A stretch of 30,170 nt of DNA, taken from a virus. The stretch is taken from the IMG/VR virus record IMGVR_UViG_3300044833_000079, positions 1 through 30,170 of that record; one strand, 5' to 3'. The translations under genes were made by a program, and so were the position numbers. Below, in pieces: positions 5,355 to 20,706 of the stretch (within the stretch, counting starts at the first letter, position 1; every line of letters begins with the position of its first letter). The notes under the pieces are model-generated. The model saw only the letters and a program-made list of their open reading frames with translations, was not told where the DNA came from and made no database searches.

Positions 5355-6244
5355 TGAATGACGCGACGGCCGCAGATGTGAGCGACTTCCCTTATATGCC
5401 GCTCTACATCGCCCGACTTCAACGGTCCAAGGCGTGGCTAATATGCAAGCGCGAACCGGCGATGGCTTTCTATTCGCTGAACCTCTGGATGAGAGCATGG
5501 CATGAGGTGCCGGCCGGTTCGATCGAGGACGACGACGACATCCTCGCCGATGCGGCGATGGCCGATCCGAAGACATGGGACAAGATCAAGGACAAGGTGC
5601 TGCGGGGATGGGAGCGGCGCGACGGTCGCCTGTTCCATGGCTTCGTTACGACGATCGCGGAAACCAGTTTCGAGGCGAAGACCAAGCAGCGACGTCAAAC
5701 GTCAGCGGCGACGGAAGCCCTGGCACGTAAGCGCCACGATAACCGTGACAATAATCGCGACGATAATCGTGACGATGACCGTGTAGCCATCGTGACGAAC
5801 ACCAAGGGAAGGGAAGGGAAGGGAGAGGGAGAGGAAAAGGGAAAGGGACAGGGAGAACTGGGTTCGCTTCGCTCACCCAGCGCGCGCGCGAGTGCAGCCG
5901 GGCGGGCACGGGAGTCGGAAACGGCGTTTGATCGGTTCTGGGCGAACTATCCCCGCCGAGATGGCAAAGCCTATGCCCGTAAGGCATTCCTGAAAGCCAT
6001 GACGAAGACGGACGAGGCCACGATCATCGCCGGCCTTGCCCGATACCGTTTCACCCCTGACCCGCAATACCACCCGATGCCCGCCACATGGCTTAACGGG
6101 GAATACTGGCTTTCCGAGCAACCGGCCCCGGCCAGCAAACCGAACACCCGCATGGAGAGCTTTGCGGCGATTCTCCAGGTGTCGCCGCCCAACAGCAGAG
6201 AACCGACCCTCGACCTCAAACCCCAAGAGTGGAGCGAAACATGA
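5354..6244 (+). CDS. DUF1376-type phage replication protein
   Basis: The 296-residue product (start MNDATAADVSDFPYMPLY) begins with a DUF1376/YdaU-like domain (about 10-110: FPYMPLYIARL...AFYSLNLWMRAWHE). A low-complexity linker follows (about 125-175), rich in D/N/R and then G/E/K. A C-terminal segment FDRFWANYPRRDGKAYARKAF ... MPATWLNGEYW is common in phage replication initiators and helicase-loader-like proteins. Adjacent helicase gene, overlapping by one base, supports a role in loading DnaB. The linker DNA carries the iteron and purine cluster described separately, as in lambda O where the origin lies inside the initiator gene. The exact biochemical role is inferred. Confidence 0.82.
   Translation: MNDATAADVSDFPYMPLYIARLQRSKAWLICKREPAMAFYSLNLWMRAWHEVPAGSIEDDDDILADAAMADPKTWDKIKDKVLRGWERRDGRLFHGFVTTIAETSFEAKTKQRRQTSAATEALARKRHDNRDNNRDDNRDDDRVAIVTNTKGREGKGEGEEKGKGQGELGSLRSPSARASAAGRARESETAFDRFWANYPRRDGKAYARKAFLKAMTKTDEATIIAGLARYRFTPDPQYHPMPATWLNGEYWLSEQPAPASKPNTRMESFAAILQVSPPNSREPTLDLKPQEWSET
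5736..5783 (+). repeat. four tandem 12-bp iteron-like repeats
   Basis: Four head-to-tail units are read directly: ACGATAACCGTG, ACAATAATCGCG, ACGATAATCGTG and ACGATGACCGTG. The third unit contains the odd palindrome ACGAT-A-ATCGT. They encode the repeated D(N/D)(N/D)R stretch of the DUF1376 protein. Iterons within an initiator gene next to dnaB are a known form of phage origin, so these are candidate initiator-binding sites. An alternative is plain coding low-complexity repeat. Confidence 0.7.
5804..5890 (+). other. purine tract with G-quadruplex motif, hairpin and CG repeat
   Basis: Bases 5804-5848 are 45 uninterrupted purines. They include four GGG runs separated by AA (5806-5823), which is a textbook two-base-loop G-quadruplex motif on the coding strand, and a possible triplex-forming tract. 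CTGGGT (5858-5863) and ACCCAG (5875-5880) form a 6-bp stem with an 11-base loop, and 5881-5890 is (CG)5. Lying directly after the iterons, this could be the melting or initiation part of an origin; it is inside the DUF1376 gene. Confidence 0.6.
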
Positions 6245-6723
6245 GCAACCCACCTGCACACCGTCACTTCCAGCCGCTGTTGTCGCCCCCGGTGCCGGAC
6301 GTGATCCCGCCGCACTGGGCTAGCCGGATCGGCACCGTATGGTCACTGGGGCCGCACACCATCGCCGACAAGCAGCGGGCGGAAGCGGCGTTGGAACAGA
6401 TCGCGCCATTCGGTGATTCGGTTAGCGAGGCGCTGGTTCGCGCGTGGTTCGCGCCGATCGCCCTGACCGCGACCAACCCGAGGCCGGCCGAACAGACCGA
6501 CAGCTACATTGCCGCGCTGATGCTGGCCCTGGACGGCGTGCCAGTGGGTGCCTTCACCGACGCCACCCAGCGCGACCTGCTGCGGTCCTGCACCCACTGG
6601 CCGGCTGCGGCGGAGGTCTATGCGGTGGTGTCACCGGCTGCTGGGCGCATCTGGGAGGATATCGCCGGCCTGCGACGGATCATCGCGGCGCCGATCAAGA
6701 TGGAAGGGGACCGGTCAACATGA
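6241..6723 (+). CDS. conserved phage protein of unknown function
   Basis: The 160-residue product starts MSNPPAHRHFQPLL; GGAG at 6231-6234 lies 6 bases upstream and the ATG overlaps the previous stop (ATGA). The sequence is Ala/Pro-rich, without membrane segments or a visible catalytic motif. A helical middle part (ADKQRAEAALEQIAPFGDSV, TDSYIAALMLALDGVPVGAF) looks like an all-helical fold. Its place after the helicase and DUF1376 genes suggests a replication accessory. I do not recognise the family. Confidence 0.8.
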   Translation: MSNPPAHRHFQPLLSPPVPDVIPPHWASRIGTVWSLGPHTIADKQRAEAALEQIAPFGDSVSEALVRAWFAPIALTATNPRPAEQTDSYIAALMLALDGVPVGAFTDATQRDLLRSCTHWPAAAEVYAVVSPAAGRIWEDIAGLRRIIAAPIKMEGDRST

Positions 6724-6908
6724 AACGCCACCCGGCGCCGATCCTGAACGACTACGTGCAGCCGAGGGGAGTATACGGCAAGGACCGCGACACATGGGAG
6801 CGGATCGGTCAATGGCAAAGGGAAGGGCTCGTGACGGTCAAGCCCACCGCCAAGGACGCCGCGACGGTGGTGTTGACCGAGAAGGGCCGCGAGGCGATTG
6901 CGCCGTGA
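6720..6908 (+). CDS. small winged-helix-like protein
   Basis: The 62-residue product begins MKRHPAPILNDYVQPRG. The segment ERIGQWQREGLVTVKPTAKD...VVLTEKGREAIAP looks like the recognition helix and wing of a winged-helix DNA-binding domain (the LTEKGREAI ending is typical). It overlaps the previous gene by ATGA. The TGA at 6906-6908 directly abuts the stop of the convergent HNH-like gene at 6909. It may be an operon-end regulator; this is inferred from the fold only. Confidence 0.72.
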   Translation: MKRHPAPILNDYVQPRGVYGKDRDTWERIGQWQREGLVTVKPTAKDAATVVLTEKGREAIAP

Positions 6909-7226
6909 TCAATCCGGAACGTAGGCTGGACTCTGCCGCCAGAGCCGTTCGGCCAGCGCGATCGGATCAATCCTTTTGGCCGCCCACCAAGTCCGCTCGT
7001 TGCCCGCCCGATGCACCCCATCACGGGCCTCGGCGACGTGGTGTGTGCCATGGCACAAGGGCACCACGTAGTTGTCGCCCGCCTTCAGGCCACGCGCCTT
7101 GCCCTCCGGCGAACAGGTCAGGTGATGCACGTCAACCGGCTCGCGCCGGCACCCAGGCACCGAACAGGGCAGCGAACCGATATAGCGCATGTGAGCCGGC
7201 GAGCGGATGCGATCGGTGATGATCAT
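6909..7226 (-). CDS. HNH/DUF968-like putative nuclease
   Basis: The 105-residue product has the pattern CSVPGCRREPVDVHH, then GDNYVVPLCHGTHH, then HRAGNERTWW. The C-x4-C pair, VHH, N-x-VPLC-x2-HH and the terminal GNE-WW are the signature of the small His-Me-finger/HNH-like phage recombination nucleases annotated as DUF968 or Ref/Rap-like. The Cys residues probably bind zinc and the HH pair is catalytic. It is the last gene of the leftward operon. The start at 7226 overlaps the next gene upstream by ATGA; an internal ATG at 7190 (MRYIGSLPC) is possible because no strong ribosome-binding site is seen for either. Confidence 0.85.
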   Translation of the reverse strand: MIITDRIRSPAHMRYIGSLPCSVPGCRREPVDVHHLTCSPEGKARGLKAGDNYVVPLCHGTHHVAEARDGVHRAGNERTWWAAKRIDPIALAERLWRQSPAYVPD

Positions 7227-7498
7227 AACCAGTGGAAACCATGTGCCATCACGCCCAGGAGCGCAGCGCCCCAGCCGATCACGACGCCAAGCAGCCAGCG
7301 AAAGTCTGAACGCATATCCGAACGCATCCCGCGCATCTCGGTCTGAAACTCGGTCCGCATCTCGCGCATCTCGGTCCGCATCTCGGCGAAGCCTTGGCGC
7401 ATCTCGCTCCGCATTTCCGCTAGGTTGTCGCGGGTATCCCTGGCGATCTGTTCCAACACCGCGACGCGGGCCGGTATGTCACTCGTTGTGTCGCTCAT
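7223..7498 (-). CDS. coiled-coil protein with C-terminal membrane helix
   Basis: The 91-residue product is a long Met/Arg/Glu-rich heptad coil (residues 10-68, with repeats of EMR and MRSEM) followed by one membrane segment, WLLGVVIGWGAALLGVMAH, and a short tail. The DNA shows matching direct repeats of CGCATCTCG between about 7335 and 7410. This architecture is shared with small phage membrane proteins of the DUF1640/XhlA type. The leader GGAGGACCGACCACATG is embedded in the end of the upstream gene. A role at the inner membrane is likely; the specific job is unknown. Confidence 0.82.
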   Translation of the reverse strand: MSDTTSDIPARVAVLEQIARDTRDNLAEMRSEMRQGFAEMRTEMREMRTEFQTEMRGMRSDMRSDFRWLLGVVIGWGAALLGVMAHGFHWL

Positions 7499-7755
7499 GT
7501 GGTCGGTCCTCCATTACCACCGCCATCCCGCAGGCGCTTGACGAGACGCGCCAGCACGCGCGGAGCGGCTTGCCACGTCTCCAGCAGAACCGGCACCCAC
7601 GACGGCACAGGCTGCTGCTCGCGGCGGCCTGGGGCGAGGGTGCGGGCCTTCCCCCAGCCGTAGATGGTCCCCCGGTCCAGCCCCGTCAGGAAGGCGAATG
7701 TGGTCTGGTTGATGCCCAGGTCGGTCAACCGTGCCTCGAACTCCTCACGTGTCAT
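7495..7755 (-). CDS. small helix-turn-helix protein
   Basis: The 86-residue product opens MTREEFEARLTDLGINQTTF and continues AFLTGLDRGTIYGWGKAR, which reads as a Cro/C1-like helix-turn-helix (helix, turn at LGINQTTFA, recognition helix DRGTIYGWGK). The C-terminus is a basic helix (LARLVKRLRDGG). Such proteins are common phage regulators. It overlaps its neighbours on both sides (ATGA downstream, 11 bases upstream). It sits mid-operon, away from the divergent control regions, so the operator it would bind is not obvious. Confidence 0.82.
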   Translation of the reverse strand: MTREEFEARLTDLGINQTTFAFLTGLDRGTIYGWGKARTLAPGRREQQPVPSWVPVLLETWQAAPRVLARLVKRLRDGGGNGGPTT

Positions 7756-8065
7756 CGGCGGCGCTCCCGCGCACCAGGGCGACGACTACGGCATGGCCGG
7801 CTATCGCCTCGTCGTGGCTGGTATAGCGGAATTGGTCGCGGTCATACGGGCCGCCGAACACCATCGTCTCCCACAGGATCGGCGGCCCGCGCCGCAGGGA
7901 ATAGCACGCAAGGCCGAGAAACACCGTCGATACCTGGACATCGCCGACCTCGGTGAATGCCAGTGTGCGCTCATGCTCGTGGGCGGCCTGCCATTCGACC
8001 CACTCCATCAAGTCCGACACCGCGACCGGGCGCTTGTCGTCGTCGAGCACATAGAGGTCGCGCAT
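7745..8065 (-). CDS. conserved phage protein (VSTVFLGL...ETMVFGG family)
   Basis: From ATG at 8065 the product has 106 residues, MRDLYVLDDDKRPVAVSDLM onward, with the conserved blocks VQVSTVFLGLACYS, GPPILWETMVFGG, and RYTSHDEAIAGHA. This matches a widespread phage family of unknown function that starts 'M..YVLD...PV..D...W..W'. AGGA at 8078-8075 lies 9 bases upstream of this ATG. An in-frame ATG at 8086 would add seven residues and overlap the previous gene; I prefer 8065 from family fit. Confidence 0.85.
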   Translation of the reverse strand: MRDLYVLDDDKRPVAVSDLMEWVEWQAAHEHERTLAFTEVGDVQVSTVFLGLACYSLRRGPPILWETMVFGGPYDRDQFRYTSHDEAIAGHAVVVALVRGSAADDT

Positions 8066-8076
8066 CACACCCGGTC

Positions 8077-8430
8077 CTAGTGCCAAAAATGGATGATCAG
8101 TGTCGCGGCCGTCAAAGCCAAGCCGGCCATGCCGACTACCGCACCTGCTGCCCAGGCCATCATCTTCCCGAGGCGCACCGTCATGCGCTGCTCCACTGCG
8201 GAAAACCCCATGTCCATATCGTGCCTCAGCGCGTCGATATCCTTCCGGATATCATCGCGCGTCGCCACCACATCTTGCCGCACTACCGTCAGTTCCTCGC
8301 GCAGCACCGCCCGCGTCACGATGGACCCCCACAGGTCCGCCAGCAGTTGCGCCAGTGTCTCGGCCTGATCGCGGGTGAAGCCCCGGCCCTCTAGTCGTCG
8401 CGTCGTCTCGATCGCGTTGAAGTCGCTCAT
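8077..8430 (-). CDS. DUF1640-like coiled-coil membrane protein
   Basis: From ATG at 8430 the product has 117 residues. It begins MSDFNAIETTRRLEGRGFTR, a DUF1640-type helical head (RRLEGRGFTRDQAETLAQLL), continues as a coiled coil (VVRQDVVATRDDIRKDIDAL) and ends in a membrane segment, AAGAVVGMAGLALTAATLII. The family is related to mitochondrial MCUR1-type proteins and is frequent in phages and proteobacteria without a settled function. It pairs with the similarly built protein at 7223-7498. Confidence 0.82.
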   Translation of the reverse strand: MSDFNAIETTRRLEGRGFTRDQAETLAQLLADLWGSIVTRAVLREELTVVRQDVVATRDDIRKDIDALRHDMDMGFSAVEQRMTVRLGKMMAWAAGAVVGMAGLALTAATLIIHFWH

Positions 8431-8521
8431 GTCGGTCGTCGCCCTTTTTATTGGCCGCAATATGCCGGTTCAGCGCGTTCCGGTCCACCGGGCCGTTGCA
8501 AGCCCGGTGTGGTGGAATGCG
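8431..8521 (-). other. intergenic leader with hairpin
   Basis: This 91-base gap holds a stem ACCGGGC (8487-8493) / GCCCGGT (8502-8508) with an 8-base loop and an extra CC/GG pair beyond a bulge. Between it and the downstream start is the leader AAAAAGGGCGACGACCGAC. The pattern, hairpin then AAGG...CCGAC leader, recurs at other junctions in this operon. Confidence 0.55.
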
Positions 8522-8848
8522 TCAGACCGCCACGTCAGTCCAGCCAGCAGGCACGGGCTCGACCGGCACATACTCGATGACGTGCATCGAACGGGTGAAC
8601 GTATCGAACCCGGCCGGCTTGCGCGCCTTCCTGTCCGCCAACTGGATCGACGGCGAGACATGCCGCCCCTCGGCCACCGCCAGGGCGCGGACCTGCGTTC
8701 CCAGATCGAGCCAGGAGCACGCCGTCACCGGGTGCTTGTCGGCGTTCAACCAATCGCTGATAGATATCTGCCAGTATTTATTGCCGCCCATCTCGTAAGA
8801 CTCGGCATCGGCAAAGCGGATTATGTAGTCGCGCATAGTTACGGCCAT
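8522..8848 (-). CDS. phage protein of unknown function
   Basis: The 108-residue product starts MAVTMRDYIIRFADAESYEM. It has no signal peptide, membrane segment or Cys pairs; it looks like a soluble alpha/beta protein with a beta-rich C-terminus (MHVIEYVPVEPVPAGWTDVA). An AAGGACCGACACAA leader stands directly before the ATG; the second in-frame ATG at 8836 is less well placed. I do not recognise the family. Confidence 0.75.
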   Translation of the reverse strand: MAVTMRDYIIRFADAESYEMGGNKYWQISISDWLNADKHPVTACSWLDLGTQVRALAVAEGRHVSPSIQLADRKARKPAGFDTFTRSMHVIEYVPVEPVPAGWTDVAV

Positions 8849-8895
8849 TTGTGTCGGTCCTTATGTTGGTTTCGTTGTCGGCCTAGACGGGGACT

Positions 8896-9159
8896 TCAGT
8901 TGCAGTACGTCGAGGTGCCCATCCGCCGGCAAACGACCGGTGGCTGATAGGGCCGATAGGTCGGCTGCGCGGTTGGCTGGGACCAATCCGTGTACCCCGG
9001 CTCCGGTGGGTGAATGTACGTGTCGTTACCCATTTGGCGCGCGCTCCATCCGTTATCGCAGTACGTCGAGGTGCCGAGAGTCCGGCACGATAGCGACTGC
9101 GCATGTGCCGCGCCGATCGGCAGTGCCAAGGCGAGAATCGCGAGAGTGTGGGTTTTCAT
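8896..9159 (-). CDS. secreted protein with two Cys-x-GTSTYC repeats
   Basis: The 87-residue product has a clear Sec signal peptide (MKTHTLAILALALPIGAAHA, cleavage after AHA). The mature part carries two copies of a short motif, CRTLGTSTYCDNG and CRRMGTSTYCN, one at each end of a Pro/Tyr/Gln-rich middle. An 18-bp perfect direct repeat (8902-8919 and 9058-9075) encodes them. The Cys pairs could form disulfides in the periplasm. Similar GTSTYCN repeats occur in small exported bacterial proteins. An effect on the envelope or superinfection exclusion is possible but unproven. Confidence 0.8.
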   Translation of the reverse strand: MKTHTLAILALALPIGAAHAQSLSCRTLGTSTYCDNGWSARQMGNDTYIHPPEPGYTDWSQPTAQPTYRPYQPPVVCRRMGTSTYCN

Positions 9160-9193
9160 CGGTTTTTACTTTCTGGTTGTTGGTCGGTTTCGG

Positions 9194-9245
9194 CCTAGAG
9201 CCGCTAAGCGGGGCGATCGATGCCGCCCCGCTGGGTAGCTCTAGG
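9194..9245 (-). repeat. nested intergenic hairpin at gene junction
   Basis: Outer stem CCTAGAGC (9194-9201) / GCTCTAGG (9238-9245) encloses inner stem AGCGGGGCG (9207-9215) / CGCCCCGCT (9224-9232). The outer right arm includes the TAG stop of the upstream gene. It is followed by the CCGAAACCGACC leader. There is no T-run, so a simple intrinsic terminator is unlikely; RNA processing, stability or translation control fits better. Confidence 0.7.
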
Positions 9246-9606
9246 CGTCCGGGCGATCGCACCGGAGGGTGGTGACGTATTCGCAGTCCCGCTCGACGGC
9301 TTCGATAGCCTCCCGGTCCTGCCCGTCCATGAAAACCGGAACCGCATCCGATCCGTGCACGTCCGCCCGGTACACGTGATAGCCCGTCTCGTTGCTGGCC
9401 AGCGCGCTACGGCTCACCGCCTCGTAGGACCGTCCAAACTCACGGACCTCGGACTCATCCAACCAGCGCGCGGCCAATGCCGGCGTCAGGCTGGCATCGC
9501 CCCACGCGGCCATCGTCTCGCCGTCGATTACGTGCGTGCTCGGTAGATTAGCGGTATCGCCGAAGATGTAGCCGGATGCGTTGTCGATCAAAATGTAACG
9601 AGGCAT
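9241..9606 (-). CDS. conserved phage protein (MPRYILIDNASGYIFGD family)
   Basis: The 121-residue soluble product begins MPRYILIDNASGYIFGDTA and contains GYHVYRADVHGSDAVPVFMD and GQDREAIEAVERDCEYV. I recall this layout from small early phage proteins of unknown function. The leader AACAAGGAGACAAGAAA precedes the ATG. No catalytic motif is visible. It sits between two structured junctions. Confidence 0.8.
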   Translation of the reverse strand: MPRYILIDNASGYIFGDTANLPSTHVIDGETMAAWGDASLTPALAARWLDESEVREFGRSYEAVSRSALASNETGYHVYRADVHGSDAVPVFMDGQDREAIEAVERDCEYVTTLRCDRPDA

Positions 9607-9634
9607 TTTCTTGTCTCCTTGTTGTCGGTTTCGG

Positions 9635-9690
9635 CCTAGTGCCGCTCAAGGGGGCAGTGCGGTTCACCCGCCCCATTGAGTGGCTCCAGG
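9635..9690 (-). repeat. intergenic hairpin at gene junction
   Basis: CCTAGTGCCGCTCAA (9635-9649) pairs with TTGAGTGGCTCCAGG (9676-9690) as a 15-position imperfect stem with G-T pairs and two mismatches, around an inner GGGG/CCCC. It ends 2 bases from the TGA of the small membrane protein gene. Layout and flanks (CGGCCTAG on one side, CAGGCG on the other) match the 9194-9245 and 10864-10919 elements, while stem bases differ in a compensating way. Confidence 0.65.
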
Positions 9691-9692
9691 CG

Positions 9693-9854
9693 TCAATGAA
9701 AGAGGGCAACCAGCACCACCACCAAGGACACGACCACGGCTGTGGCCTTGACGGTCCACTTGGCGAGCGAGAACACGATCAGCACCGCATCTTCAGGACC
9801 GGCCAGCATGACCAGCAGGATGAGGACCAGCAGGATCACCACAAGGATGAGCAT
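9693..9854 (-). CDS. 53-residue two-helix membrane protein
   Basis: The product starts MLILVVILLVLILLVMLAGP, then EDAVLIVFSLAKWTVK, then ATAVVVSLVVVLVALFH, so it is almost wholly two hydrophobic segments around a short charged loop. GGGGGAG stands about 8 bases ahead of the ATG inside the end of the upstream gene, whose TGA is only 2 bases before this start, indicating coupling. A small holin-like or membrane-stress protein is possible from size and topology, but no lysis genes are adjacent. Confidence 0.75.
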   Translation of the reverse strand: MLILVVILLVLILLVMLAGPEDAVLIVFSLAKWTVKATAVVVSLVVVLVALFH

Positions 9855-9856
9855 GA

Positions 9857-10231
9857 TCAGGACTCCCCCTCGTCATCATCGCAGCCGTGGAAATCGCCCG
9901 AGTGTGCTTCACCGTCCACGTAATCGGCGATCGACGGGAATGCCGTTATCGGCCAATAGCGGGTGCGCGTGGACCGGATGCGCTGGTCAGGCCCAGCGCG
10001 GTGTGCCGTGACGCATATCTCGGTATCGGCCGTCAGCATCGCCGACTGGAAGTCACCACCTTTCTCCGACATCACCAGTTGGATGACGTCACGCAGGGTC
10101 ACCTTGTCGCCGACGATGCGTCCGATTTCACGGGACAGATTGACGGATAGATCCATGCCGCACTTGGCACCTACCGGCCACCAAATCGGACCGCATATGC
10201 CGCCGCGAAGTGAGATATCGTAATGGGTCAT
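9857..10231 (-). CDS. phage protein of unknown function
   Basis: From ATG at 10231 the product has 124 residues (MTHYDISLRGGICGPIWWPV...). An AACAAGGCGACCGACACA leader precedes this ATG and is the same as at neighbouring genes, which decides the start over any longer frame. The C-terminus is acidic (GDFHGCDDDEGES). Middle part (VTLRDVIQLVMSEKGGDFQS) looks helical. I do not recognise the family. Confidence 0.78.
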   Translation of the reverse strand: MTHYDISLRGGICGPIWWPVGAKCGMDLSVNLSREIGRIVGDKVTLRDVIQLVMSEKGGDFQSAMLTADTEICVTAHRAGPDQRIRSTRTRYWPITAFPSIADYVDGEAHSGDFHGCDDDEGES

Positions 10232-10259
10232 TGTGTCGGTCGCCTTGTTATTGTTTCTG

Positions 10260-10832
10260 TTACGCCGCTTCGCCGAACGCGCGGCCGGACTGGAGCGCGG
10301 CCACCAGCTTTTCCAGGCATGTCTCAACGGACCAGTTAGACGACAAGCGCCCCCGCCTCTTGCCGTTTGAAATGGTCACCTCGTTGCCGGTGATCTTGAT
10401 CTGATCCGGACCAGCGAACGCAGCGAACCGGACAGGCTTGCGATCGGTCTTGGACCGCGCGGTGACGATGCGCAGTGTGCGGCCTTCGGCAATCAGGCGG
10501 TCGGCTTCGCGTGTGGCTACGCCAAGCCGGTAATGGTTCATCACGCGACCAGCCATGTAGTAGCCGTTCCCCGGCTCATGATTGCCGGGATTGATCGCCA
10601 ACCCCAGGTATTCACCCATGGCGCTGTTGTAGGGGTATCCGGTCTGCCCCTTGCCCTTCTGTGCAGCCGCGTAGTCGGACTGCGCCATCTCCATTTCATT
10701 CGCCACGTCGGCAAGGCCGCCCTGGAATGCCTCAGCCTCATCGGCCCTCAGCGCCTCGTACCATGGCTTAATTGCGCTGCGAGCGGTGATGTAGGCCATC
10801 AATGCGGGGTATTGGGCTGCTGCGTCGATCAT
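10260..10832 (-). CDS. phage protein of unknown function
   Basis: The 190-residue product begins MIDAAAQYPALMAYITARSA and includes a Tyr/Gly/Asn-rich middle (GYPYNSAMGEYLGLAINPG) and a basic C-terminal half (ARSKTDRKPVRFAAF, SNGKRRGRLS). The basic part may bind nucleic acid. The leader AACAACAAGGACCGACAAC is the clearest copy in the operon. The largest protein of this leftward set; no family recognised. Confidence 0.78.
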   Translation of the reverse strand: MIDAAAQYPALMAYITARSAIKPWYEALRADEAEAFQGGLADVANEMEMAQSDYAAAQKGKGQTGYPYNSAMGEYLGLAINPGNHEPGNGYYMAGRVMNHYRLGVATREADRLIAEGRTLRIVTARSKTDRKPVRFAAFAGPDQIKITGNEVTISNGKRRGRLSSNWSVETCLEKLVAALQSGRAFGEAA

Positions 10833-10863
10833 GTTGTCGGTCCTTGTTGTTGTTGATTACCGG

Positions 10864-10919
10864 CCTGATGCCGCGAAAGGGGGCGGTGGTGTCCCGCCAC
10901 CCCATGTCGTAGCTTCAGG
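10864..10919 (-). repeat. intergenic hairpin at gene junction
   Basis: CCTGA (10864-10868) pairs with TCAGG (10915-10919), whose right arm contains the TGA stop of the upstream gene. The interior has a GC-rich stem, GGGG-GCGG against CCGC-CA-CCCC. Position and outline match the elements at 9194-9245 and 9635-9690. Confidence 0.6.
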
Positions 10920-11427
10920 CGGTGATGAGGGCGTATTGCTTGGTGATCTGCTTGCACATGCGCGCGGAGTTGTCCTGGCAGGTGCGGGACCCCAGTTCGA
11001 ACGTCGCAACGAGCTTGCCCTTGCGGTGGATATGCAGGTTGAAGGCATCACCGTGAAAACCAGCTTCGCGCAACGCCTGCGTGGTGTGGGAGTCGGGGTA
11101 GAACTCCAGCGCGATCGCATCACCGACCCGCAGCGTCGCCAGCGCGCTTGACGCCCGACAGGCTTGCGACGGGAATAGGCTCACGCTTTCGACGCAGGAC
11201 CACGTGGCGTTCTCGTCACGGTAGTCGTGGTGGCACCGAACCGGCGCCGCGATCGCGTGGCGGACGTCGGTTGCAAATGGGTTTTTCGCGGTTTTCTCGG
11301 CGCGCTTGACCGCTTCAAACTTGCTGCCAACGACACCGTTGCAGTCGAGCCATGCAACGATGTGATAGGCGTGCCGTAGCGCGGCGATATCGATCTTGGT
11401 CAGTTCGTAGGGGGGAACGTAAGTCAT
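10915..11427 (-). CDS. phage protein of unknown function, Cys/His-containing
   Basis: From ATG at 11427 the product has 170 residues (MTYVPPYELTKIDIAALRHA...). It has scattered Cys and His (RCHHDYRDENATWSCVE, SQACRAS, SRTCQDNSARMC) and a C-terminal segment FNLHIHRKGKLVATFELGS. ACAACAAGGAAACCGACG precedes the ATG and fixes the start. No catalytic set is evident. Confidence 0.78.
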   Translation of the reverse strand: MTYVPPYELTKIDIAALRHAYHIVAWLDCNGVVGSKFEAVKRAEKTAKNPFATDVRHAIAAPVRCHHDYRDENATWSCVESVSLFPSQACRASSALATLRVGDAIALEFYPDSHTTQALREAGFHGDAFNLHIHRKGKLVATFELGSRTCQDNSARMCKQITKQYALITA

Positions 11428-11476
11428 CGTCGGTTTCCTTGTTGTCGTTGGTGGTGTGGTGGTGGTGGTGAACCGA

Positions 11477-11800
11477 TCAGGGCAACCTCGCGTGGCGACG
11501 CTCGTAGGTCTCGACGAAATCACCGACCGTGGTCAGCCGAAAGCTATCGGTCTCAATCACGTAGAGGATGGTGCTGGCGTAGCTGTCGCCGCTGTTGCTG
11601 TATTCGGCGACGATGCCGCCATCCTTGTCGCTGATGACCTCGACGCCGTGATTTTCGAGTAGCGCGTCGATACGCCGCATCCGCACTTCGCCGCGCTGGA
11701 TGGACCGGCGGATCTTCCCCAGGTTTTCGACCGGGACGGTGGGGAATGCATCGGTCAATGACCGCAGGGAGGGAGCGCGCTTTATCGCTGGGGTTGTCAT
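11477..11800 (-). CDS. small phage protein of unknown function
   Basis: The 107-residue product begins MTTPAIKRAPSLRSLTDAFP; it has a basic helix (LGKIRRSIQRGEVRMRRIDAL) and a beta-rich second half (GVEVISDKDGGIVAEYSNSG...STILYVIETDSFRLTTV). The AACAAGGACGCCGACAC leader precedes the ATG. The 49-base gap downstream is a GGTGGT-repeat leader and holds no gene. Confidence 0.75.
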   Translation of the reverse strand: MTTPAIKRAPSLRSLTDAFPTVPVENLGKIRRSIQRGEVRMRRIDALLENHGVEVISDKDGGIVAEYSNSGDSYASTILYVIETDSFRLTTVGDFVETYERRHARLP

Positions 11801-11826
11801 GTGTCGGCGTCCTTGTTGGTGGTGGT

Positions 11827-11848
11827 GGGGGCGGGCGTTGCCGCCCCC
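11827..11848 (-). repeat. perfect GC hairpin at gene junction
   Basis: GGGGGCGG (11827-11834) and CCGCCCCC (11841-11848) form an 8-bp perfect stem with a 6-base loop, 6 bases after the stop of the upstream leftward gene. It is followed in the leftward sense by ACCACCACCAACAAGGA, not by a T-run. Confidence 0.7.
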
Positions 11849-11854
11849 TGTCAG

Positions 11855-12205
11855 TCACTCGATGCCGGCGGCCTCGTCGGCAGCGGCAAGGCGGGCGATG
11901 TGTGCGTCGATCTCCGCATTCGACGGCTCTTGGACCACCCAGCTTTCGGTGGGTTTGCTGCCGTAGCCGCGATAGCGCGGCGCAGTTTCGAGTGCAGCCA
12001 ACTGTGCCGCGATACGCTTCGCCTTGCGTGCCACCAGAGAGGTGTATTCCGCTTGGTTGATCTCCTGCACCGCGATCGACCCCGGCTGCGCGCTCATGCC
12101 CCAGTTGCGGTCGTTCTCGAACCGCAGGCTGCGATAGGCTCGCGTGTCGCTGGCCCGGAAATACGTCTTGCCGTCGTGGTGGGCGGCGAAATAGCGTTTA
12201 GTCAT
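11855..12205 (-). CDS. first gene of leftward operon, unknown function
   Basis: The 116-residue product (MTKRYFAAHHDGKTYFRASD...) is basic in the first half and helical later (LVARKAKRIAAQLAALE, SNAEIDAHIARLAAADEA). CGGAGACGAC stands before the ATG. It is the promoter-proximal gene of the leftward block, the position often held by host-takeover or regulatory genes, but the sequence shows no known domain. Confidence 0.75.
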   Translation of the reverse strand: MTKRYFAAHHDGKTYFRASDTRAYRSLRFENDRNWGMSAQPGSIAVQEINQAEYTSLVARKAKRIAAQLAALETAPRYRGYGSKPTESWVVQEPSNAEIDAHIARLAAADEAAGIE

Positions 12206-12241
12206 GTCGTCTCCGTTGGTTGGTGATTAACTGACGCCGCA

Positions 12242-12271
12242 TTTATATATGGATATGTGCGATATTTGCAA
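12242..12271 (-). promoter_or_regulatory. candidate promoter of the leftward operon
   Basis: On the minus strand TTGCAA (12271-12266) and TATAAA (12247-12242) are separated by 18 bases, with an overlapping TATATA at 16-base spacing. This is close to a sigma-70 consensus and lies 37 bases ahead of the first leftward start, in the most AT-rich stretch of the window. Confidence 0.55.
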
Positions 12272-12299
12272 TTTAATTATTTACGCCATTAATTGAATT
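12270..12299. promoter_or_regulatory. inverted repeat in divergent control region
   Basis: AATTTAATTA (12270-12279) and TAATTGAATT (12290-12299) are inverted copies with one mismatch, separated by 10 bases. They lie between the leftward promoter and the rightward gene at 12387. An operator or an A/T-rich protein site is likely. The rest of 12206-12386 has no gene. Confidence 0.5.
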
Positions 12300-12386
12300 A
12301 AAACAGCGACATAACCGGAAACTGTTGCTCGCGACACAAAAAGGTGCGAAATCGATCCCTCTATCAGCACACACAGGAGCACCGAC

Positions 12387-12572
12387 ATGGGCGCACTAGG
12401 CACCAAACCACCGGGCGGACAAGGCAAGGGCGACACCCGCACCAGTAAGGGGATGGACACCAAGGTCGGTAGCGGGTCCAGGCCCGGCGCGGCATCGATC
12501 GCGATCGAGACCACCGCACCCAGCAACACCCACACGATGGACCGCAACCCGCCCGGCGACTGGCTCAAGTAA
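12387..12572 (+). CDS. small Gly/Lys/Thr-rich protein
   Basis: The 61-residue product (MGALGTKPPGGQGKGDTRTS...) is low-complexity, hydrophilic and probably disordered. AGGAG at 12376-12380 is 6 bases ahead of the ATG. It is the first rightward gene after the divergent region and precedes the terminase genes. Function not known. Confidence 0.7.
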   Translation: MGALGTKPPGGQGKGDTRTSKGMDTKVGSGSRPGAASIAIETTAPSNTHTMDRNPPGDWLK

Positions 12573-12607
12573 CCAGCACACCACCACCACCGGCCGAAGG
12601 ATCGACG

Positions 12608-12640
12608 CGAGGCGCATGACCCACCCAGGTCGGCGCCTCG
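12608..12640 (+). other. strong intergenic hairpin before terminase genes
   Basis: CGAGGCGC (12608-12615) and GCGCCTCG (12633-12640) form a perfect 8-bp stem, with an inner GACC/GGTC stem (12618-12621, 12628-12631). No T-run follows on either strand. It may be an RNA processing or attenuation element between the small first gene and the terminase operon. Confidence 0.55.
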
Positions 12641-12675
12641 TCCATGTCAGGAGATAGAGGAGGAGGACCGGTCAC

Positions 12676-13233
12676 ATGCCAACACACGATGGGCAGACAA
12701 CCAGGGCAGAGCACGCAGCTACACACATCGTCGGCCCCCTCGTCCCAGGGACCCAACGGCGCCCTAATCCACCACCAAACGTGGACATCACACCAGGACG
12801 ACCAACAACCTACCAAGACGCATTCCCAGAAATCGCGCGCCGACTCTGCCTGTTAGGACTCAGCGATGCCGAAATCGCCGCGTTCTTCGGCGTAAGAGCA
12901 GAGACAATCATCGATTGGGACGCCGCGCACCCCGAATTTCGTCAAGTTCGCGCGGGCGCACGAGACCTCGCCGACGCCAACGTGGCCGCGCGGCTGTATC
13001 AGCGTGCGATGGGTTACGAGCACCCGGAGACGCACATCGCGGTTAGCCAGGGTGTCGCCATCCAGACCCCGACCACTCGCGTCTATCCCCCTGACACTGA
13101 TGCTGCACGGTGGTGGCTAAAGAACCGCCAACCGCAGCGGTGGCGTGATCGGACGGAGGTGGAGACTTCTGGGACGGTGCAGCTTGGCGTGCTGGCCATC
13201 CCGATGAAGACCACGATCGACGGCGATGCCTGA
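12676..13233 (+). CDS. terminase small subunit
   Basis: The 185-residue product has a disordered Pro/Thr-rich N-terminus (about 1-45) and then a helix-turn-helix, LGLSDAEIAAFFGVRAETII, followed by DWDAAHPEFRQV and AARLYQRAMGYEHPET. This HTH-plus-'hPEF' layout is that of phage small terminases, which bind the packaging site and load the large subunit. WWLKNRQPQRWRDRTEVE near the end is also typical. AGGAGGA at 12661-12667 is 8 bases ahead of the ATG. It overlaps the large-subunit gene by 8 bases. The DNA upstream to 12573 may include the pac/cos recognition site. Confidence 0.88.
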   Translation: MPTHDGQTTRAEHAATHIVGPLVPGTQRRPNPPPNVDITPGRPTTYQDAFPEIARRLCLLGLSDAEIAAFFGVRAETIIDWDAAHPEFRQVRAGARDLADANVAARLYQRAMGYEHPETHIAVSQGVAIQTPTTRVYPPDTDAARWWLKNRQPQRWRDRTEVETSGTVQLGVLAIPMKTTIDGDA

Positions 13234-14584
13234 CGGTTCAGTCGTCTGGACACCGACGCCGCGCCAAGCGGAGTTCCTGGCCGCCCCCGAGGACGAGGTG
13301 CTTTATGGCGGTAGTGCTGGGGGCGGCAAGACGGATGCGCTGATCATCGACGCGCTGGGTGCGACGCATCGGGCGGTTGAACAGCCCGAGTATCGCGGCC
13401 TGATCCTGCGCCGGTCCTACCCCGAACTGAAAGAGGTGGTGGACAGGAGCAACGCGATCTATCCCCGCGTCTATGCCGGTGCAAGATATGTAGAGCCGGA
13501 ATGGAGATTCCCCAGCGGTGCTAGGCTGGAACTGGGGTTTCTCGACCGCGACGAGGATGTTTACCGGTATCAGAGCCGGCAATTTCAATACATTGCGTGG
13601 GAGGAACTGGCGCAGTGGAGGACGGACGTTGCCTACACCTATATGATGAGTCGGTTGAGGGCGCCTGAACGGCTCGCCATCCCCTGCTACGTCCGGTCCA
13701 CCTGCAACCCCGACGGCCCAGGCGCGCGATGGATCGCCGAACGCTGGGGCATTCAACCGGATGGCCGGTCATGCTCACGCACTATTCGCGCGGGTGAACG
13801 CACTTTCCGACTGCGGTTTATTGCGGCAAGGCTGGACGACAACCCGCACCTCAGCGGCACCGGCTACCGCGAGCAATTACTCAGGCTCCCCGAAAGTATT
13901 CGCAACGCGCTGCTTCACGGTCGGTGGGATGAGCCGGTCATCGAAGGCAGCATCTACGGTGACAGCCTTGCCGATGCCCGCCGCGACGGTCGCATCACCA
14001 GCGTGCCGGTCGAGCCCACCGTCCGCGTCGATACGTGGTGGGATCTTGGTGTGGCGGACAGCACGGCGATATGGTTCACCCAGGACGTCGGGCGTGAGTT
14101 GCGCGTGATTGATTACTATGAGGCATCGGGTGAGGGTCTACCGCATTACGCGGCAGTACTGGACAAGCGCGGCTATCTGTATGGCCGGCACACTGCACCG
14201 CACGACATCCAGGTGCGGGAGTTGGGCAGCGGACGGTCGCGCGTCGAGACCGCCAGCACGTTGGGCATTCGCTTCGAGACCGCACCATCGATCGGCCTGG
14301 AGGATGGCATCCATGCCACGCGCATGTTGTTCCCTCGGATGTGGTTCGATGCGGTGCGGTGCAAGGCCGGCATCGAGGGGCTCACGCACTACCGCCGCGA
14401 ATATAACCGCCGGCTCAACGAGTTCAAAGCCACGCCGGTCCATGACTGGTCGAGCCATCCGTCTGATGCCCTGCGCACCCTCGGTGTCTCGCACAAGGCC
14501 CGGCCGGTGCTGCCCAAGCCCTCGACCTATGCCATCCAAGTGGACGCTGATGCACCACCGTCACAAGCATGGCTTGGTGCATGA
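13226..14584 (+). CDS. terminase large subunit
   Basis: The 452-residue packaging motor has an ATPase with Walker A GGSAGGGKT (28-36) and Walker B region QYIAWEEL (121-128), then an RNase H-like nuclease with WWDLGVADSTAIW (Asp273) and a C-terminal HPSDALR motif holding a further acidic residue. RLDDNPHLSGTGYRE is a conserved linker element of this family. It cuts concatemers and pumps DNA into the prohead through the portal, which here is encoded some 13 kb downstream. Length is normal for the family. Confidence 0.95.
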   Translation: MPDGSVVWTPTPRQAEFLAAPEDEVLYGGSAGGGKTDALIIDALGATHRAVEQPEYRGLILRRSYPELKEVVDRSNAIYPRVYAGARYVEPEWRFPSGARLELGFLDRDEDVYRYQSRQFQYIAWEELAQWRTDVAYTYMMSRLRAPERLAIPCYVRSTCNPDGPGARWIAERWGIQPDGRSCSRTIRAGERTFRLRFIAARLDDNPHLSGTGYREQLLRLPESIRNALLHGRWDEPVIEGSIYGDSLADARRDGRITSVPVEPTVRVDTWWDLGVADSTAIWFTQDVGRELRVIDYYEASGEGLPHYAAVLDKRGYLYGRHTAPHDIQVRELGSGRSRVETASTLGIRFETAPSIGLEDGIHATRMLFPRMWFDAVRCKAGIEGLTHYRREYNRRLNEFKATPVHDWSSHPSDALRTLGVSHKARPVLPKPSTYAIQVDADAPPSQAWLGA

Positions 14585-18629: not shown

Positions 18630-20615
18630 TTAAGGCGTCAGCCCGGCCAGATATGCCTTAGCCTTGGTCAGTTCTGACTGCGCGGTATCGATGTGCGCGC
18701 TGGCGGTGAGGTAGGTGGCGCTAGGTGGCATCACGACCGGGGCGGCGGCGGTGGCCCACACGTCGGTTGGCTGCGCCTTCGTCCACCAGCCGCCGGCCTT
18801 GTTCTGCTGGTACACTAGGCTGGCGTTGTAGGTGATCAGCACGACGTTGGCTGTCATCGTGTCGGCGGCGCCACCGACCGCGCACTGTCCGCCCGAGGTC
18901 AGCGTCCAGGATGCGCCGGTGGCATCGATGATCGCGGGGTCGGTCGATTTCGTGATGTTGGTGCCGTTTGCTGAGGCTGCTGCCACGGGCGTTGCTCCTT
19001 TGAGGGTTTGCTGAAATAGCCAGTTCCACGAGGTCGCCTGTGGGTAGTACGTGTCCCACACGTCGTGGCCGAGTGAACCGTCTTCGGTGTATTTCATCAC
19101 GCCGCCGATCGCCTTCATCTGCGCCGCCATCGCCCGGTCCCAGGCGAGCGGGACGGAGGTGTCCTGCCCGCCGTGGATCGCCCAGATCGGCTTGGACTTC
19201 AGCGCGGCGCATGTGGTGTTGACGTCACGCGCGTAGCTCGCCCCGGCCAGCGGCATTGCTGCGGCGAACAGCGTCGGCTTGAACGCGATCATCTCCCACG
19301 TTCCGATGCCGCCCAGGCTGTTGCCGGTCACGTAAACCCGCGCCGGATCGTATTTATGCGACGCCAGCACCGAGGCCAGCACCGCCAGCGCCATGTCGCG
19401 CCCCGCCGTGATGGAGGGGCTCACGCCACCGAAATTGACGGTGTTGCCCGTCATATCCGCACTCTGATCGAGCAGCGGGGCGACGACGATCGCCGGATGC
19501 GCCTTGAACGCCGCGCTGGTGAACCACGGGTTGATCTCAGTCATCAGGCCGCTGACCGCCCCGCCGGTGCCCATGTCGAGTTGGTGCAGGTAGAACACGA
19601 CGGGATAGGCCGTCGCGGCGTTGTAGTTGTCCGGCAACAGTATCTTGAAAGCCATGCCGCCGACGTTGCCATCCTGCCATGTCGCCACTGTGGAGCCTCC
19701 TGTTGCCGGTGCCGCTGGAAGACTGGCAACAACCGCAAGGGCGGCGGCGTTCGCCACCACACCCCAGGCGGTCAGCTTGCCGCCCTGTTGCAAAGCGTTG
19801 GCTTGGTCAGCGTCCCAATGCCAGCCCGCGAAGCCCTGCGTATGGCCCTGGGTCCACGCCCAGGTGGTGACCGCGTATTCGACCTCGGCGGCGTTGGCGT
19901 CGTCCACCACCGAGGCGGTAGAGGGGCCGGTTTCGCCGTTGATGACCGGCACCACGCCGTCCGCGCTGGTGATCGCCTGTGCGGCCAGAATGCCGGTACC
20001 GCTTGCCACGGAGCCCAGCAGGGCCGCGTTGACGGTCGCCTGATCGGTGGAATTAACCACCCAACCGTAGAAATGCAGATCCCAGATAATCCCGCGCATC
20101 AACTTGTATGTGGCGGGAGTAAGCGTCGGCGCCCCGACCCCGCCGGGATTGCCTCCCCCGACACCGCACATCAGCATGATCGGGTTATTATTGCCGGTGC
20201 CACGGATCGCGGCATAGGTCGCGGCGTGTTGGGCCGACAGGTCGCCGCCCTGCGGCTCGTTCATAGAGCCCAGCCATAGAAGGGGCTTGCCAATGGCATA
20301 GGCGGCCCAGGTCTTATACCACGCGGACTCTGTCGCGAGGTCCGTCCCCGAAAGCGCATTGATGAGGGGCCAGGGGTGATGCTCGACCTCGCACACCACC
20401 CCGGCATTCATCAGGTCCGTCAGCAGCGGTTCCCACTGTGCCGGCTGATCGTAGTTACCTAGCGGCACACGCACGAACCGGGTGTGCGGAAACAGCGCCA
20501 GGATCGTGGCGGCGGGCACGCTGTTGTCGATGTTCAGCCCGGCGGCGAGAAACCGGGCACCGCTGGGGTCGTAGATTTTGCCGTCCGAGACGGTGTAGAC
20601 GCCGTTTGCGCTCAT
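18630..20615 (-). CDS. GH5-type glycosidase fused to alpha/beta-hydrolase esterase
   Basis: From ATG at 20615 (GGAGA 8 bases upstream) the product has 661 residues. Residues 1-295 resemble a GH5 barrel: IYDPSGARFLAAGLNI, FVRVPLG, SMNEPQ with acid/base Glu120, WDLHFYGW, and VINGETG with nucleophile Glu228. Residues 320-540 are an alpha/beta-hydrolase: YPVVFYLHQ, GNSLGG with Ser433, HGGQDTSVPL with Asp485 and GSLGHDVWD with His517, as in PHB-depolymerase/feruloyl-esterase enzymes. The C-terminal GASWTLTSGGQCAVGGAADT with VYQQNKAGGWWTKAQPTDVW looks like a substrate-binding or tail-associated module. No signal peptide. It likely degrades and deacylates host polysaccharide, possibly cellulose-like. 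Confidence 0.85.
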   Translation of the reverse strand: MSANGVYTVSDGKIYDPSGARFLAAGLNIDNSVPAATILALFPHTRFVRVPLGNYDQPAQWEPLLTDLMNAGVVCEVEHHPWPLINALSGTDLATESAWYKTWAAYAIGKPLLWLGSMNEPQGGDLSAQHAATYAAIRGTGNNNPIMLMCGVGGGNPGGVGAPTLTPATYKLMRGIIWDLHFYGWVVNSTDQATVNAALLGSVASGTGILAAQAITSADGVVPVINGETGPSTASVVDDANAAEVEYAVTTWAWTQGHTQGFAGWHWDADQANALQQGGKLTAWGVVANAAALAVVASLPAAPATGGSTVATWQDGNVGGMAFKILLPDNYNAATAYPVVFYLHQLDMGTGGAVSGLMTEINPWFTSAAFKAHPAIVVAPLLDQSADMTGNTVNFGGVSPSITAGRDMALAVLASVLASHKYDPARVYVTGNSLGGIGTWEMIAFKPTLFAAAMPLAGASYARDVNTTCAALKSKPIWAIHGGQDTSVPLAWDRAMAAQMKAIGGVMKYTEDGSLGHDVWDTYYPQATSWNWLFQQTLKGATPVAAASANGTNITKSTDPAIIDATGASWTLTSGGQCAVGGAADTMTANVVLITYNASLVYQQNKAGGWWTKAQPTDVWATAAAPVVMPPSATYLTASAHIDTAQSELTKAKAYLAGLTP

Positions 20616-20706
20616 GGGTGTTCTCCGCTTGTGGGGCTCAGTGTCCATCACGAACCAATCAGGCGGCTGACAAACAATCCCAATGAACTTACGCTACTCG
20701 ATGGAT

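Follow-up and report, generated by a model that had tools for sequence, protein, structure and literature searches.

The linear virus record IMGVR_UViG_3300044833_000079, 30,170 bp long with 62% GC and analysed over its full length (the window), contains a leftward operon in which three gene junctions carry copies of one imperfect hairpin, each followed by the ribosome-binding leader of the next gene. This repeated hairpin probably functions within the mRNA to separate neighbouring genes. The 13-gene operon and the list of its 13 starts are our own definition, derived from open reading frames (ORFs) and codon-position GC.

Hairpin copies and the common start leader

The element is an imperfect hairpin of 54-58 nt with the pattern GCCTnnAGCYAC ... 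GCGGCnnnAGGC and an invariant A.C mismatch. On the mRNA the module reads from 5' to 3' as a stop codon in or just before the 5' foot, a lower stem, an internal loop, a GGGG/CCCC upper stem, the 3' foot AGGCCG, a U-poor stretch rich in CA and CAA, a Shine-Dalgarno sequence (SD), CCGACA and ATG, with the start codons located about 27-34 nt past the stem. When the window is folded in 60-nt segments, two of the three copies rank with the most stable. Hairpins had been reported at four stop codons in the preliminary description; three of them are confirmed with corrected boundaries (fold z about -5.1 to -5.3, Table 1), whereas the fourth, at 11827-11848, reaches a z of -1.4 only.

Table 1. Hairpins, leaders and related sites of the leftward operon (z, fold z-score computed against dinucleotide shuffles)
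Feature	Position	Strand	Remarks
Hairpin copy 1, 54 nt	9193-9246	-	z -5.16; stop TAG of gene 9241-9606 inside the 5' foot of the stem
Hairpin copy 2, 58 nt	9634-9691	-	z -5.10; starts 1 nt past stop TGA of gene 9693-9854
Hairpin copy 3, 58 nt	10863-10920	-	z -5.27; stop TGA of gene 10915-11427 inside the 5' foot
Leader CATAAGGACCGACACAA of start 8848	8849-8867	-	from sequence
Leader ACAACAAGGAGACAAGAAA of start 9606	9607-9629	-	SD kept, CCGAC part degenerate
Leader AACAAGGCGACCGACACA of start 10231	10232-10249	-	
Leader AACAAGGACCGACAAC of start 10832	10833-10848	-	exact consensus
Leader AACAAGGAAACCGACG of start 11427	11428-11443	-	
Leader AACAAGGACGCCGACAC of start 11800	11801-11817	-	
Leader variant TAAAAAGGGCGACGACCGAC of start 8430	8431-8450	-	
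Leader variant GGAGGACCGACCAC of start 7498	7499-7512	-	
Leader variant GGAGCACCGAC of rightward start 12387	12376-12386	+	
Short perfect hairpin, 8-bp stem, 3' of gene 11855-12205	11827-11848	-	z -1.36; membership doubtful
Possible remnant with right foot TCTAGGCCGA but no hairpin	about 8870-8895	-	from sequence; no fold, z 0.04
Leftward operon, about 13 small, mostly orphan genes carrying the modules	7223-12205	-	from ORFs

In the alignment of the three copies 31 of 58 columns are identical throughout, so the earlier view of stems that differ in sequence and keep only their shape does not fully account for them. Copy 1 is recovered with 38.3 bits (E 9.8e-7) by a model built from copies 2 and 3, as is copy 3 with 45.7 bits (E 3.5e-9) when the model is built from copies 1 and 2. 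The calibration of these E-values is rough; for comparison, outside the copies the three-copy model gives chance scores of at most about 10 bits in the window. On the opposite strand the left-out copies score lower (28.5 and 22.0 bits, respectively). Because of the shared columns and of this leave-one-out recovery against such low chance scores, the three hairpins are homologous beyond reasonable doubt and not merely alike in shape. The homology spans the junction, from near the foot of the element to short of the next start and including the leader, while the genes flanking the copies are not paralogous. The junction is thus the unit that was copied, and a segmental duplication of genes is rejected since the flanking genes are unrelated. 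Mimicry of CRISPR repeats is likewise rejected, as the copies differ and their spacing is irregular.

Several operon starts are preceded by a leader of the form AACAAGG...CCGAC-ATG. Exact AACAAGG is found ahead of starts 9606, 10231, 10832, 11427 and 11800 and CATAAGG ahead of 8848, and most of these six leaders run on to CCGACA before the ATG. Within 12 nt upstream, CCGAC is present at 7 of the 13 operon starts (7498, 8430, 8848, 10231, 10832, 11427 and 11800) compared with 19 among the remaining 985 ATGs of the window (26/998 in all; Fisher p = 5e-9). ACCGAC-ATG is also found at the rightward start 12387 on the opposite strand. The AAGGA portion is an ordinary SD, and the unusual portion is the conserved CCGACA spacer. 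The leader had been described for at least eight starts: it is real, given the six starts and the enrichment of CCGAC, but a count of eight is obtained only with looser variants. At the hairpin junctions the 20 nt before the start together with the start codon are predicted to be 0.54-0.79 unpaired. Just 5' of two SD leaders, at 11446-11470 and 11814-11826 (both on the minus strand), CAC-rich triplet runs (ACCACCACC) are observed, which are probably unstructured ribosome-loading stretches.

Pairing of the arms and related sites

With the arms set in a symmetric register of 24 positions, copies 1 and 2 each form 21 pairs and copy 3 forms 20. Between copies the arms differ by 11-15 substitutions, yet 20-21 of the 24 pairs are kept. 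At five of the 24 positions both partners are changed with a standard pair retained in two copies, namely at 5/54 (A-U to G-C), 6/53 (G-C to A-U), 13/46 (U-A to G-C), 14/45 (C-G to A-U) and 16/43 (G-C to A-U), while position 11/48 holds the A.C mismatch in all three copies. Fewer pairs are obtained when bases are permuted within the same columns (means 16.6-17.7, p 0.005-0.025) or when columns are drawn at random (means 12.7-14.7, p 0.0002-0.005). Taken together, this is moderate evidence that the pairing is under selection. With the A.C column set aside, the mRNA strand has six G-U cells and a single A-C cell, and this excess of G-U leans towards RNA.

The short hairpin at 11827-11848 folds no better than 18 of 200 shuffles, and the model of the element aligns to it over the apical half alone (positions 18-42, 10.6 bits, E 1.9, not significant), although its local similarity to copy 1 is equalled in only 1 of 2000 shuffles. 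The site at about 8870-8895 is perhaps a deletion remnant of the element, its similarity to the copies not being significant on its own. Since the junctions 10232-10259 and 11428-11476 also carry a leader and no hairpin, it follows from these sites that the leader occurs without the hairpin. A hairpin at approximately 8465-8512 was rejected as a further copy, its sequence being unrelated.

Proposed role of the hairpin at the gene junctions

That the hairpin acts at the RNA level appears fairly likely. We give about an even chance to the more specific reading that it is a cis-acting RNA hairpin of the leftward polycistronic mRNA, copied together with the ribosome-binding leader, which decouples neighbouring genes. 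Its position at the stop codon, ahead of an SD leader that is predicted to be largely unpaired, suits a part in RNA processing, stability or translation control. The hairpin would block ribosome run-on and reinitiation past the stop codon and would supply a protected 3' end to the upstream message, the stem possibly being cleaved by a double-strand-specific nuclease such as the host RNase III, while the leader would provide the next gene with a start of its own. If the hairpin does act on RNA, a part in processing or stability is somewhat more probable than insulation of translation. In a review by Brown and Wade (PMC12548453), structure directly past a stop codon is reported to lower the coupling of translation, and attC hairpins at the same position are reported to make translation of the following cassette less efficient without terminating transcription (PMC8876359). 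If a ribosome stood at the stop codon, the lower half of the stem would lie beneath it; folding may in this way sense upstream translation, and formation of the hairpin may therefore depend on its level. More tentatively, and with doubt prevailing, the modules might represent a novel family of cis-regulatory RNAs in phages, in which a start leader and a stop hairpin that folds in dependence on the terminating ribosome are copied between junctions and insulate each inserted gene. Small genes often join phage operons, and how the expression level of each newcomer is set is poorly understood; a portable unit of stop, hairpin and leader copied across junctions would be a natural genetic insulator.

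Several observations weigh against this decoupling role. The covariation is weak by a control in which the 3' letters are exchanged at random between the copies, the observed score being attained in 49 of 500 cases, and it rests on three copies in a single genome. Both DNA strands fold about equally well, and other junctions of the same operon are without the element. Furthermore, searches of IMG/VR, of phage records and of sampled bacterial genomes brought up no relative that carries it. Exact-pattern scans of IMG/VR (27, 44 and 2 matches) and of GTDB genomes (50 matches) gave only hits that appear chance-like by fold, context and model score, the best of them scoring 26.6 bits compared with 65-82 bits for the copies in the window. 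No match to model R1 was found in terminase-related phage records and BcepNazgul, nor in 599 genomes of two sampled bacterial orders (E limit 1e-4); since the orders were guessed and the filters were strict, these negatives are weak. Among proteins, no relatives were found for the product of 10260-10832, for a joined query of five operon proteins, in plasmids, or with the helicase as query, and the loci with relatives of the 11477-11800 product are without the module. The phage with the closest terminase (L029, 78%) is represented by a 5 kb fragment, on which the operon is missing. In a survey of 83 contigs, each 9 kb or longer, the window ranks third for similarity among a contig's own strongest hairpins, a rough ranking in a sample biased by the way the loci were retrieved. 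In eight other survey loci that were inspected nearly all matches lie inside ORFs, and only one locus (L122) has a copy that is clearly intergenic. This 118 kb phage contig contains two similar GC-rich hairpins (CCGTCAGGCCCCGG...CCGGGGCC) at 10614-10680 and 13716-13780, at least one of which is clearly intergenic, and scanning the entire record for the pattern gave no further exact copies.

Alternatively, the hairpins could be a roleless duplicated junction, a segment with a strong hairpin that was copied during growth of the operon and is now drifting or being lost. Homology that takes in the entire junction with its leader, the possible truncated remnant, the several junctions without a hairpin and the lack of conserving relatives in the searches would all fit, but the pairing kept across the substituted arms exceeds the null models, and we regard such an origin without function as unlikely. 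A translational operator, to which a phage or host RNA-binding protein would bind and thereby repress or activate the downstream gene, would account for the invariance of the GCCTnnAGCYAC / GCGGCnnnAGGC feet and of the A.C mismatch, which together would form the recognition site, around a middle stem that varies with compensation. It is rather improbable, as the start codons lie well past the stem and are predicted to be mostly unpaired and no RNA-binding protein is recognised in the operon.

Even less credit can be given to a site acting on DNA, either in an attC-like exchange of cassettes or as a cruciform or single-strand DNA hairpin for a recombinase, and we consider it very unlikely. The coupling to an SD leader, the lean of the non-Watson-Crick pairs to G-U on the mRNA strand and the absence of the attC core GTTRRRY (core from PMC8876359) all speak against it, and no integrase was seen among the proteins scanned, which come from a part of the ORFs of this linear and possibly fragmentary record. 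Imperfect hairpins at gene ends with structure kept over sequence, folding about equally well on both strands, together with a RuvC-like resolvase encoded at 188-730, are what such a site would have in its favour. The idea of recombination sites for cassette exchange put forward in the preliminary description is thus weak, the flanking genes being unrelated and no relative being available to show an exchange. Its remark that T-runs are absent holds for all three copies, none of which is followed by one. As no U-run is present, the hairpins are not intrinsic (Rho-independent) terminators, and no terminator-like match is found at any module. Factor-assisted terminators or attenuators, which would lower transcription stepwise along the operon, would be in keeping with strong GC-rich hairpins at gene ends within one operon, but they are more improbable still: hardly any U follows the stem (CCGAAACCGAC), and the two terminator-like sites in 7000-13500 are not located at a hairpin and are outnumbered by those in shuffles. 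A structured RNA module other than an ordinary terminator, as initially proposed, is supported by the compensatory changes, the leave-one-out models and the missing U-tract.

Genomic setting and comparison with known systems

The operon is located between replication genes and the terminase. Proteins encoded in the window include DNA methyltransferases, a DnaB-like helicase, a replication initiation or primosomal protein, a terminase and a P22-like portal in addition to the resolvase; no tRNAs and no Rfam matches were found in it, and GenBank phages gave no nucleotide relatives (searched with 6000-13900). The operon proteins match no Pfam family at cut-off and no PHROG convincingly. Only the product of 11477-11800 (minus strand) has relatives elsewhere, all distant, namely gp04 of BcepNazgul (36% identical) and proteins on a phage contig of 350 kb (L137) and on another contig of 62 kb (L138), and its C-terminus RLTTVGD.VE is conserved. 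Genes 7223-7498 and 8077-8430 (minus strand) begin with similar leaders and encode two small coiled-coil proteins, each with a C-terminal hydrophobic stretch, which appear to be distant paralogues (28% over 46 aa, E 0.005) and give weak CCDC90-like Pfam matches below cut-off. The small protein of 8896-9159 (minus strand) has a signal-peptide-like start, MKTHTLAILALALPIGAAHAQ, and in its mature part a motif repeated near both ends (CRTLGTSTYCDN ... CRRMGTSTYCN), the DNA repeat being 83% identical over 30 nt. An AT-rich gap at 12206-12340 separates the leftward operon from the rightward genes in this otherwise GC-rich phage and is likely a divergent promoter region; a sigma-70 scan found nothing in it. 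Farther away, a long ORF of 673 aa at 18630-20651 (minus strand), which weakly matches a putative esterase (E 3.6e-6), overlaps the forward ORF 19173-20279, and either of the two may be the coding frame.

Among known RNA elements, no Rfam family is reached at the gathering threshold, a lax search giving only matches far below the gathering scores. Intercistronic repetitive extragenic palindromic (REP) sequences of bacteria are stable palindromes at gene ends which are able to protect upstream mRNA, and the element resembles them in being a stable palindrome at gene ends. An assignment to REP or to bacterial interspersed mosaic elements (BIMEs) is rejected, as the foot is GCCT/AGGC instead of GTAG, no REP-associated tyrosine transposase (RAYT) is present among the proteins scanned and the search of the 599 sampled bacterial genomes, made with strict filters, gave no copies. 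The RNase III (R) sites of phage T7 are irregular hairpins of about 60 nt with stems of about 20 pairs and internal loops, located between the genes of a polycistronic mRNA. The element described here is likewise an irregular intercistronic hairpin, with 20-21 of 24 pairs and internal mismatches, and by analogy it may work like these sites in effect; unlike it, the T7 sites are not known to be coupled to a common start leader.

Integron attC sites (PMC8876359) also are hairpins at gene ends that overlap the stop codon and keep structure over sequence. Contrary to these, the element lacks the GTTRRRY core and provides the next gene with an SD leader, and no integrase was seen among the proteins scanned. 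The feet of its stems are GCCTAGA/TCTAGGC, GCCTGGA/ACTAGGC and GCCTGAA/ATCAGGC, which do not correspond to RYYYAAC ... GTTRRRY, and identity with attC is rejected on account of the core.

The start-associated sequences (SAS) and extended SAS (ESAS) of cluster K mycobacteriophages (PMC3203893, PMC11373665) are similar in that a short conserved sequence containing an SD lies just before many starts and is joined at a subset of them by an upstream imperfect inverted repeat; they too accompany small non-structural genes and have no assigned function. Their consensus is GGGATAGGAGCCC (PMC3203893) in place of AACAAGG..ACCGACA. ESAS contain SigA-like promoters (PMC11373665); in 7000-13500 of the window only one promoter-like site was found, at 7249-7222 and outside the modules, and a SigA-like -35/-10 arrangement was not found in the inverted repeats. 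According to Pope et al., the changes in the ESAS arms do not support RNA pairing, whereas the arms here change in step, with five compensated pair positions. Membership in SAS/ESAS, and with it a role as ESAS-like promoters, thus fails on sequence, promoter and pairing. In contrast to SAS/ESAS, whose role has been open since 2011, the test for RNA pairing is positive for the hairpins of this operon.

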